A program made the translations under genes and the position numbers. From assembly GCA_002730735.1 (NCBI GenBank), contig PCAU01000010.1, positions 1-64,000 on the forward strand: 64,000 nucleotides of DNA, given 5' to 3'. Each line of letters starts with the position of its first letter. Within the stretch, counting starts at the first letter, position 1. Source of the DNA: Acidobacteriota bacterium (GTDB taxonomy: Bacteria > Acidobacteriota > Vicinamibacteria > Vicinamibacterales > UBA823). Positions 12,301 to 63,921 of the stretch are shown here, one piece after another. The notes beneath the pieces were generated by a model, which was not told where the DNA came from, ran no database searches, and saw nothing but the letters and a program-made list of their open reading frames with translations.

Positions 12301-12465
12301 ATGCCCTTTGGTATAGGCCTCATGGAGCTCGTGGTCATCTTCTTCATCTTGCTCCTGATCTTCGGCGCGAAGCGCCTGTCTGGGATCGGACGCGGGATGG
12401 GGCAGGCCATTCGTGGCTTTAAGAGTGAGGTCAAGGACCCCGACACGCCAAAAGAAGAAGCTTAG
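12301..12465 (+). CDS. tatA: TatA/E twin-arginine translocase subunit
   Basis: A 54-residue protein with an N-terminal membrane helix (about residues 7-21), the conserved FG hinge at residues 21-22, an amphipathic helix (AKRLSGIGRGMGQAIRGFK) and an acidic tail. This is the standard TatA/TatE layout, slightly shorter than E. coli TatA. TatA oligomers form the conduit through which folded twin-arginine substrates cross the inner membrane. A ribosome binding site (AAAGG) lies about six bases before the ATG. No tatB or tatC is adjacent. A likely local client is MsrP at 50.5-51.5 kb, which has a twin-arginine signal. Confidence 0.9.
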   Translation: MPFGIGLMELVVIFFILLLIFGAKRLSGIGRGMGQAIRGFKSEVKDPDTPKEEA

Positions 12466-12639: not shown

Positions 12640-13167
12640 CTATCGCTTGGGAACGTCTAGGGCAGCAAGGCGCTCAACGACCTGTGCACCGGCAGTCGGG
12701 GCATTCACTTCCTTATCGACGTAAAGGATGCGACCGTCACCACCGATGTAAAAGGTCCACCGTTGAGGGAGTTGACGCTCCGGCGACACCACACCGTAAG
12801 TACGTGCCACATCTCCATCAGGATTGCTTAACAGTGGAAAATCAGCTTCCAAGGATTCAGCGAATTTTCGATTTGTCTCAGCATCATCGACGCTGACCAT
12901 GAAATAGTTCGCGTCGTACTCCCGAATAGCATCACCGTTCTCACGGAACGATTTGCACTCGGCCGTTCAACCGCCAGTGAAGGCCTTTGGAAACCAGGCT
13001 AACACGACAGTCCGACCTGTAAGATCACTAAGCGAATGCATTGCGCCATCTGATCCGATTAATGAAAATGGCGGCGCGGCATCGCCAGGACCTAACTCTT
13101 GAGCACTCGCGATAGTCACGGTGGCAAACATTCCAACCAGGACACACACGATGAGAAGGACTTTCAT
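12640..13167 (-). CDS. Selenocysteine peroxiredoxin (BCP/AhpC-like), Sec67
   Basis: The two parts of this gene are separated only by an in-frame UGA (12967-12969). Read through, they give a single complete peroxiredoxin: FPKAFTGG-Sec-TAECKSFRENG. The family has the peroxidatic Cys exactly at that position, here Sec67, with the resolving Cys candidate four residues later (Cys71). The product is 175 residues. It starts with a signal peptide (MKVLLIVCVLVGMFA...SAQ), so it acts in the periplasm or is exported. Downstream, WTFYIGGDGRILYVDKE is the usual C-terminal redoxin strand. The start ATG at 13167 follows AGGGGG 11 bases upstream. Reaction: reduction of hydroperoxides using thiol donors. A SECIS-like hairpin follows the UGA. 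Confidence 0.85.
12934..12952 (-). promoter_or_regulatory. SECIS-like hairpin of the Sec peroxiredoxin
   Basis: On the coding strand AUCGUUC pairs with GAACGGU (seven pairs, one G-U) around loop CGUGA. The loop starts 21 nt after the UGA and has G as its second base. This agrees with the known bacterial SECIS layout: a hairpin within the coding region just after UGA, apical loop about 16-37 nt away and a G among the first loop bases. Confidence 0.7.
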
Positions 13168-13353
13168 AACGTCAATACCCCCTAGCTCAACTTTGCCGAT
13201 AACAAGCAAACCCATAAATCCCTATTTCCCACTTCCCCTAAACTCTTTCTTTATAATAACCCGCGACGGCTAATATTCTTGAACCTGTCAATGGTCAACC
13301 CGAAATAACCGCCTGGCACACCCTCTACATTAGGTCAGTCAGCGACAGGGACC

Positions 13354-39238: not shown

Positions 39239-40126
39239 TTAGTCACCTGCTTCATTGACCTCTCCGACCTCTCCATTGTCGATGTATGCTTGCGCGATCG
39301 CAACGGCGAGTTTCCTCACTCGAAGAATATAGGCCGTGCGCTCGGCTACCCCTATCCCGCTACTTGCGTCAAGAATATTAAAAATGTGGGAACACTTAAG
39401 ACAGTAGTCCAGTGCAGGAATTACGAGACGCGTCTTAAGCAACGTCTGCGCAAAAGCCTCATACTGCTCAAATAACCCTCGATGGAACGAAGCAAAGTCT
39501 TCGGGTGGCTGGTCGACCTTTCCAAACACATATTTTGATTGTTCGACCTCTTCTTGTAATCGAACCGCACCATACTTGACCCCCGGCGACCACTCAATAT
39601 CAAAAACATTGTCCACCTTTTGCAACAACATGGCGATACGCTCTAGGCCATAAGTGATTTCCGTGGAAACTGGAGACAACACCTGGCCACCTGCCTGCTG
39701 AAAATAGGTGAACTGCGTAATTTCTTGACCATCGAGCATTACTTGCCAGCCAATCCCCCACGCACCCAAGGTTGGGGACTCCCAATTATCCTCCTCAAAT
39801 CGAACATCGTGGGCCGCGCAGTTGATGCCACACGCCTCGAGACTCTCCAAGAAGAGTTGTTGAGATCGGTCTGGGGATGGCTTCAAAAGCACTTGAAACT
39901 GATGATGCTTAAATAATCGGTTCGGGTTCTCACCAAAACGACCATCGGCCGGACGCCGCGAGGGCTGAACGTAAGCAACCCGCCATGGGGACGAACCTAG
40001 CACCCGTAAGAACGTTTCCGGGTGCATTGTCCCCGCTCCAATTTCTAAATCGAGCGGCTGGTGGATCAAGCACCCTTTCGAAGCCCAATAGTTGGATAGG
40101 GCAGAAATGAGATCTTGAAAAGTCAC
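39239..40126 (-). CDS. glyQ: Glycyl-tRNA synthetase alpha subunit
   Basis: Catalytic alpha subunit of the bacterial-type glycyl-tRNA synthetase. Class II motifs are evident: MTFQDLI at the start, [21 protein letters not shown] near residue 24, [20 protein letters not shown] near residue 53 (motif 2 with the ATP-binding Arg), and [15 protein letters not shown] near residue 116. The active-site Glu and the [13 protein letters not shown] segment are present. Length 295 residues is normal. It lies immediately before glyS, and recO lies 40 bases upstream on the same strand. Confidence 0.96.
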
Positions 40127-62850: not shown

Positions 62851-63921
62851 TCAATCTATTATCGAGCGAAGGGCAAGCGTCCAACTAACAGGTAAGACCA
62901 CAGGGTTGTAGCAGATTACGTCGTCACACGCCTGGTACTCAAACACGCCATCGATGATCAGCGACCCACCATCCACCGCACGCTGTCGAATCTCTGGCAC
63001 GGTCGGAATTGTGATGTCCTGTGCGATCCGAAACGGCTGCTGATAGACCTCTACCCGCTCGTCGAGCGGCTCAAAGTGATAAATCTCCGACTCGGGATAA
63101 ATGATGGGGTGGGTAACTAGCCCTTCCTTAGGATTTATTCGAAGAGTAATCACCTGATACGAATGACTACCTGGCGCGTAGACGTGAATGCCAAATTTCG
63201 GTGTCACGTCGAGGACAACCGAGAACCTGTTGCCGGGCGCAACGATGCGATCGGTCGGATAGGCCACAGCCTCAAGATGGTCGGTCGTCAGCCTTATCCC
63301 GTCGACCCCAGTGCCTCTGAGCGGATTGCCGAGTTTAACGGCGATACTCGACACGGTATTTCGCGGTTGATACCCTTGCTCGAAAAACCGCCCAAGAACC
63401 CGACCGTTGGAATCAAGAATGAACGTGCCCGGGTGTGGAATACCGTAAACACGACTTGCCGCCTCGACTGACTCGTTAAGAAGACCGTAGCGTTTAATGA
63501 CTGCCGAACCAACGTCCGATAGCATCGAAAATTCCAGTCCTTGGCGATCGACGTAGGCTTGTTGTATCTCAACAGGGTCGTAAGTGATCACGGCCAACTC
63601 CAGTCCGGCCGCTCGCAAGTCCTGATACCGACTTTGCAGCTCAACGAGCTGCGTCTTGCACCACGGTCACCAATCCGCCGAACGACTGAAGACTAGCATC
63701 AACCCTCGTGGCCCGTAGAGTGACTCAAGGGTGCGCGTTTCACCCCGATGGTCCAGTAGCGTAAAATCCGGTACGGCTTCACCGACCTGCGGACCCAGTT
63801 CGCTTGGATTAAAGGTGTTAGGCTGAGCCCATACCATTTTCGATAGACCTAGGCACCCGGTAAGAACCAGCGTTATCACCAACGTCTGATTCACGATCCT
63901 AGCGCTCTGAAGCCTATCCAT
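62851..63921 (-). CDS. Selenocysteine redoxin fused to a DsbD-alpha-like domain, Sec85
   Basis: An in-frame UGA (63667-63669) joins two halves into one 356-residue protein: FSRSADW-Sec-PWCKTQLVEL. The redoxin/AhpC family has Cys-x-x-Cys there, so this is a Sec-x-x-Cys redox centre (Sec85, Cys88). Before it lie a membrane-anchor or signal segment (about residues 12-32) and the GEAVPDFTLLDHRGE redoxin start. After it come the second half of the thioredoxin fold (GIPHPGTFILDSNGRVLGRFF) and, from about residue 225, a beta domain like the N-terminal domain of DsbD, with FEYQACDDVICYNPVVLP near the end. Predicted envelope location; likely a thiol-selenol peroxidase or oxidoreductase. A SECIS-like hairpin follows the UGA. 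Confidence 0.85.
63636..63652 (-). promoter_or_regulatory. SECIS-like hairpin of the Sec redoxin
   Basis: On the coding strand GCAGCUC pairs perfectly with GAGCUGC (seven pairs) around a GUU loop. The loop begins 21 nt after the UGA, the same spacing as at the peroxiredoxin, with G as first loop base. This is a good match to the bacterial SECIS layout. Confidence 0.75.

Follow-up and report, generated by a model that had tools for sequence, protein, structure and literature searches.

A conserved in-frame UGA very probably encodes the peroxidatic selenocysteine of a putatively exported peroxiredoxin in Acidobacteriota

The locus studied here raises the question of whether a single UGA codon, which interrupts a peroxiredoxin reading frame exactly at its peroxidatic position, ends translation or is read as selenocysteine (Sec). 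The locus lies in the window, by which we mean the whole 64,000-nucleotide stretch of Acidobacteriota DNA that was analysed. A first-pass annotation had described a frame split by one UGA within AFTGG-U-TAEC without naming a strand. We translated positions 12640-13215 on the minus strand, on which the gene lies, and observed exactly this: the UGA at 12969-12967, in the context WFPKAFTGG-U-TAECKSF, is the sole break in a frame that continues to DVPKR and a TAG stop at 12642-12640. Translated with UGA as Sec, the locus contains the following features.

12640-13167, minus strand: coding sequence of the putatively exported selenocysteine peroxiredoxin, 175 amino acids from ATG to TAG
13102-13167, minus strand: signal-peptide-like N-terminus MKVLLIVCVLVGMFATVTIASA, a hydrophobic sequence with predicted cleavage after ASA
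12967-12969, minus strand: UGA codon for Sec67, the predicted peroxidatic residue and the last residue of the P-x-x-x-T-x-x-C motif
12934-12952, minus strand: SECIS hairpin with a 7-bp stem (AUCGUUC/GAACGGU) and the loop CGUGA at 12945-12941

We consider the ATG at 13167 the better start because the 16 codons upstream of it are unconserved among relatives, whereas the sequence from 13167 on is conserved; this boundary bears out the earlier numbering of the Sec as residue 67. The gene is intact, and another genome of this species has an identical sequence over the region. Ordinary gene callers would nevertheless split it in two, as had been foreseen: the open reading frame list made under translation table 11 shows the gene as an 82-residue and an 86-residue fragment.

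We found the joined protein to be an AhpC/TSA peroxiredoxin by Pfam match, by sequence and by fold, the outcome expected when its alignment with BCP/AhpC-type enzymes was proposed. The match to AhpC-TSA (PF00578) had an E value of 2.4e-29 and 102.2 bits against a cut-off of 26, and it spans the UGA. So does the predicted fold of an AlphaFold2 model (mean pLDDT 92) that was computed from 32 window and locus sequences. The PDB matches of this model were Sulfolobus Bcp1, a BCP, BcpB and AhpE of M. tuberculosis and Xanthomonas PrxQ (TM scores of about 0.72-0.78 by query), and the nearest solved relatives by sequence were likewise BCP/PrxQ and AhpE peroxiredoxins. The Pfam match and the model thus agree on an intact redoxin fold, as first claimed. 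At the finer level of NCBIfam equivalogs, none reached its cut-off with the window protein: the PrxQ/BCP models NF053650 and NF006960 gave 72.6 against 260 bits and 66.8 against 140 bits, and the PrxU model NF040737 gave 43.5 against 270 bits.

The signal peptide that had been proposed is matched by a hydrophobic, signal-peptide-like N-terminus, after which the protein continues QELGPGD. Residues 1-20 have low pLDDT in the model, and the mature part is preceded by a hydrophobic 12-mer in 88 of 90 distinct proteins. These features suggest that the protein is exported by the Sec translocation route. In the mature part, Pro60, Thr64, residue 67 and Arg136 occupy the expected places of a peroxiredoxin active site.

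12988-12990, minus strand: Pro60 of PxxxTxxU, present in 108 of 110 sequences and replaced in 2 of 110
12976-12978, minus strand: Thr64 of PxxxTxxU, present in 110 of 110 sequences
12955-12957, minus strand: Cys71, the likely resolving cysteine (U-x-x-x-C), Cys in 110 of 110 sequences
12760-12762, minus strand: Arg136, an invariant column in the 32-sequence alignment

We take Arg136 to be the conserved active-site arginine, as is general in the peroxiredoxin family. With both the PxxxTxx(C/U) motif and this arginine kept, the protein is classed as a PxxxTxxU-type peroxiredoxin. Cys71 is the only Cys or Sec besides Sec67 in the mature window protein, and a helix of the model (residues 65-76) holds both positions; lying four residues after the Sec, Cys71 is likely to be the resolving residue.

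These features bear on the alternative that survives best, namely that the protein is a selenoprotein whose peroxiredoxin domain serves as an exported thiol:disulfide oxidoreductase or in regulation, rather than as a peroxidase. An exported location would suit such a role, the peroxidase function is itself a prediction, and PMC13188914 assigns related Prx-like (UxxC) families to the thiol:disulfide oxidoreductases. However, unlike the UxxC Prx-like proteins, the window protein keeps the full PxxxTxxU motif and the conserved arginine of peroxidatic peroxiredoxins. We therefore consider a non-peroxidase role unlikely and infer that the protein has peroxidase activity.

To follow residue 67 across relatives, we scanned genomes with peptide patterns that left this residue out, which returned 80 loci. 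Relatives of the window's genome contributed a further 29 loci, several of which were records already among the 80, and the final alignment held 110 sequences including the window, or 90 distinct proteins. The codon at residue 67 was UGA in 95 sequences, TGC in 13 and TGT in 2, and no other codon occurred; among the distinct proteins, 75 had UGA and 15 had Cys. Homologues thus carry only UGA or Cys here, the pattern that the first-pass annotation had proposed to test for. Relatives as distant as about 50% identity share this UGA at the corresponding codon. The organism labels of these relatives are partly unreliable, for example 'Woeseiaceae' for locus L026 and 'Klebsiella pneumoniae' for L083, the latter probably a binning label.

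In the genus and family comparisons with usable dS, dN/dS was 0.03-0.15 downstream of the UGA and 0.06-0.29 upstream of it, indicating purifying selection on both sides. The closest pair gave 0.70 before the UGA, a value that is uninformative because it comes from only 3 changes. Of the 162 genomes of the order, 141 contain a relative, and most of the matches listed had one in-frame UGA, so selenium may be routine in this order's peroxide defence. Homologues with Cys came from Planctomycetota, Verrucomicrobiota and some Acidobacteriota (for example L041, L052 and L080). On a quick protein tree from which residue 67 was omitted, parsimony required seven Sec/Cys changes, only two of them imposed by well-supported branches; repeated exchange is therefore likely, although its count is not firm.

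In some relatives we also observed tandem pairs, each with one copy lacking a UGA and one copy containing a single UGA (G009, contig C174, 14184-14762 and 14933-15397; G133, contig C223, 11904-12410 and 12602-13105). Such pairs could reveal the origin of Sec and Cys duplicates. Gene order around the peroxiredoxin gene is kept within the genus and much of the family and is lost in more distant relatives, and this conserved order gave no functional link. Within the genus it includes a convergent tatA-like gene (54 residues) at 12301-12465 on the plus strand.

We next considered the hairpin downstream of the UGA. The first-pass annotation had described seven pairs and a CGUGA loop in a stem beginning 21 nt after the UGA; the pairs and the loop stand, but it is the loop that begins at 21 nt, and the stem begins at 14 nt. 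The bSECIS model of PMC13188914 has a loop of 3-9 nt, a stem of 4-16 bp, a G in the first two loop positions, a distance of 16-37 nt from UGA to loop and a minimum free energy of at most -7.5 kcal/mol. The window hairpin has a 5-nt CGUGA loop, 7 bp, a G at loop position 2 followed by U, a distance of 21 nt and -10.2 kcal/mol for the 42 nt after the UGA. The bare 19-nt hairpin folds at -5.6 kcal/mol, and a 66-nt stretch folds at -27.2 kcal/mol (z -2.76). When the window was scanned with Rfam at gathering thresholds, one tRNA was the only hit, with no match to a SECIS family.

Plain folding energies separated the Sec and Cys genes weakly (mean z against synonymous-codon controls of -1.13 for UGA and -0.58 for Cys, p 0.04), so we tested the defined hairpin instead. 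Its six-pair core was complete in 72 of 73 distinct UGA sequences, as against 3 of 15 Cys sequences, and all 73 had at least five of the six pairs. The UGA sequences fell into two registers, with a 5-nt loop (n=58) or an 8-nt loop (n=15), and one stem pair showed a compensatory change from C-G to U-A (44 versus 14 sequences). When synonymous codons were shuffled 500 times using each gene's own codons, the mean paired fraction of the UGA set was 0.67, compared with 0.998 observed, and 0 of 500 shuffles reached the observed value. The loop codon was CGU in 66 of 73 UGA sequences, whereas CGU makes up 193 of the 1179 Arg codons in these genes. The Cys set had a paired fraction of 0.77 against 0.62 in its own shuffles, an excess that could reflect either a codon effect or what is left of an earlier hairpin. 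The strong SECIS evidence is thus the defined hairpin and not the mean folding z-scores.

Conservation of the UGA, the frame and the hairpin over dozens of diverged genomes is far beyond chance. It bears directly on the reading of the UGA as a true stop, in which the gene would be a pseudogene with a nonsense mutation or two separate short proteins, as the 82- and 86-residue fragments of the standard list would suggest. This reading is refuted by the conservation of the UGA and the frame across genomes: relatives to about 50% identity share the codon, dN/dS stays low downstream of it, the Pfam domain and the predicted fold run across it, and the conserved SECIS occurs mainly in the genes with UGA. 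We regard it as extremely improbable. An error of sequencing or assembly that turned a Cys codon (TGC or TGT) into TGA is more improbable still. The two differ by one base and the window comes from a draft metagenome assembly, but assemblies of many diverged species carry the same TGA with synonymous changes around it, which excludes the assembly error that had been named as a possible refutation.

The genome itself encodes much of the machinery for Sec insertion. It has a tRNA-Sec gene with a UCA anticodon (on contig C11), selA (549 bits) and selD (350 bits), the last with its own in-frame UGA within CAGUASK. These genes, together with the restriction of residue 67 to UGA or Cys, run opposite to the combination of another residue class and missing sel genes that had been set as grounds for rejection. 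A second candidate, on C13, scored 49.9 bits, above the Rfam tRNA-Sec cut-off, but ARAGORN calls it tRNA-Ser; because the Rfam model also scores this tRNA-Ser, we counted only the C11 gene. The selD gene is itself a selenoprotein gene (L104, 1017-2126; contig C1, about 157516-158625), with one in-frame TGA.

We did not find selB in the window's own genome (assembly 61% complete) or in the same-species genome (97% complete). In each of the three congeners, selB sits between groEL and an RNase R-like gene. Contig C17 of the same-species genome is 39604 bases long, and its match to this region breaks off at 39604, within that RNase R-like gene. An assembly gap is thus the best reading of the absence; we rejected a true loss from the species, which two genomes without selB might suggest, since the contig ends at the expected place of the gene. 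Apart from selB, the sequence evidence supports a Sec pathway in this genome. Genome-wide reassignment of UGA, for example to Trp, would also leave the frame open when UGA is read as sense, but is scarcely credible given that relatives without UGA have Cys and never Trp, that UGA ends other frames in the window (such as the gene ending at 62851) and closes many relatives of the peroxiredoxin gene, and that tRNA-Sec, selA and selD are present.

The window contains a second likely selenoprotein gene at 62851-63921 on the minus strand, with a UGA at 63669-63667 in the motif W-U-P-W-C. Its product is a fusion of a redoxin (AhpC-TSA, 94.6 bits) with a DsbD_N domain (PF11412), and a hairpin, CAGCUC-GUU-GAGCUG, has its loop starting about 21 nt after the UGA. 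Possible relatives in congeners are about 371 residues long with one TGA. The product resembles a Prx-like/PF11412 fusion selenoprotein described in PMC9402790.

For the locus at 12640-13167, comparative sequence analysis establishes a recoded frame, a conserved SECIS hairpin, Sec/Cys exchange and the peroxiredoxin family and fold. The best explanation of the whole, in which we have very high confidence, is a Sec-containing peroxiredoxin in which UGA codon 67 is read as Sec, its export and enzymatic activity being predicted. In the mechanism we propose, the hairpin downstream of the UGA would recruit SelB with Sec-tRNA(UCA), and Sec would be inserted in place of a translation stop. The protein would then be exported through the Sec route and its signal peptide removed. 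The U67 selenolate, set up by Pro60, Thr64 and Arg136, would attack the peroxide, and Cys71, from the same helix, would resolve the resulting selenenic acid and so give a selenenylsulfide. A periplasmic thioredoxin-like protein could then reduce the U67-Cys71 bond.

These results extend the selenoenzymes of uncultured soil and marine Acidobacteriota by one well-supported member. Selenoproteins seem to be little studied in this phylum: a literature search for selenoproteins and Vicinamibacter returned no paper, and broader ones for Acidobacteria returned passing mentions only. In practical terms, standard gene callers split such genes, and the window protein scores below the cut-off of every NCBIfam model. 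The pairing of Sec forms, most of which have the SECIS, with Cys forms, most of which lack it, also provides a natural set for studies of Sec/Cys exchange.

Among known systems, PrxU (NF040737) is likewise a named Sec peroxiredoxin family, its name presumably referring to PrxU of E. acidaminophilum. The window protein scores far below that model and has a signal-peptide-like N-terminus. In PrxQ, a second Cys lies in the same helix as the peroxidatic residue, at +5. The window protein shares its fold, its overall sequence and the position of the peroxidatic residue at the helix start with PrxQ/BCP (Sulfolobus Bcp1, 3drn; Xanthomonas PrxQ, 5iiz) and AhpE (1xvw), but differs in having Sec for Cys, a second Cys at +4, with one residue less between the two than in PrxQ, and probable export. 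The Cys homologues (for example L041, L052 and L080) share the signal-peptide-like N-terminus, with a C-x-x-x-C site and 48-59% identity; they have a Cys codon for the UGA and mostly lack the SECIS hairpin.

The kind of protein is already known. TxxU Sec-peroxiredoxins have been reported since 2005, with 43 genes from the Sargasso Sea (COG1225), where they ranked second in abundance among the known selenoprotein families (PMC1088965), 253 sequences in the GOS set (PMC2398784) and a catalogue entry (PMC13188914). The window gene is a well-supported member, sharing with this family, which is abundant in marine bacteria, the AhpC/TSA domain and Sec at the peroxidatic position of PxxxTxxU. The available excerpts of these descriptions, with which we compared it by description only, contain no Acidobacteriota host, export or invariant +4 Cys. 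At this finer level, an exported U-x-x-x-C subfamily, which is not named in NCBIfam, may be new. We somewhat favour the view that the window gene belongs to such an unnamed, periplasmic Sec-peroxiredoxin subfamily, found in most Vicinamibacterales-type Acidobacteriota genomes and some Planctomycetota and Verrucomicrobiota. Within this subfamily, Sec and Cys would have been exchanged several times and the SECIS would be present or absent accordingly.
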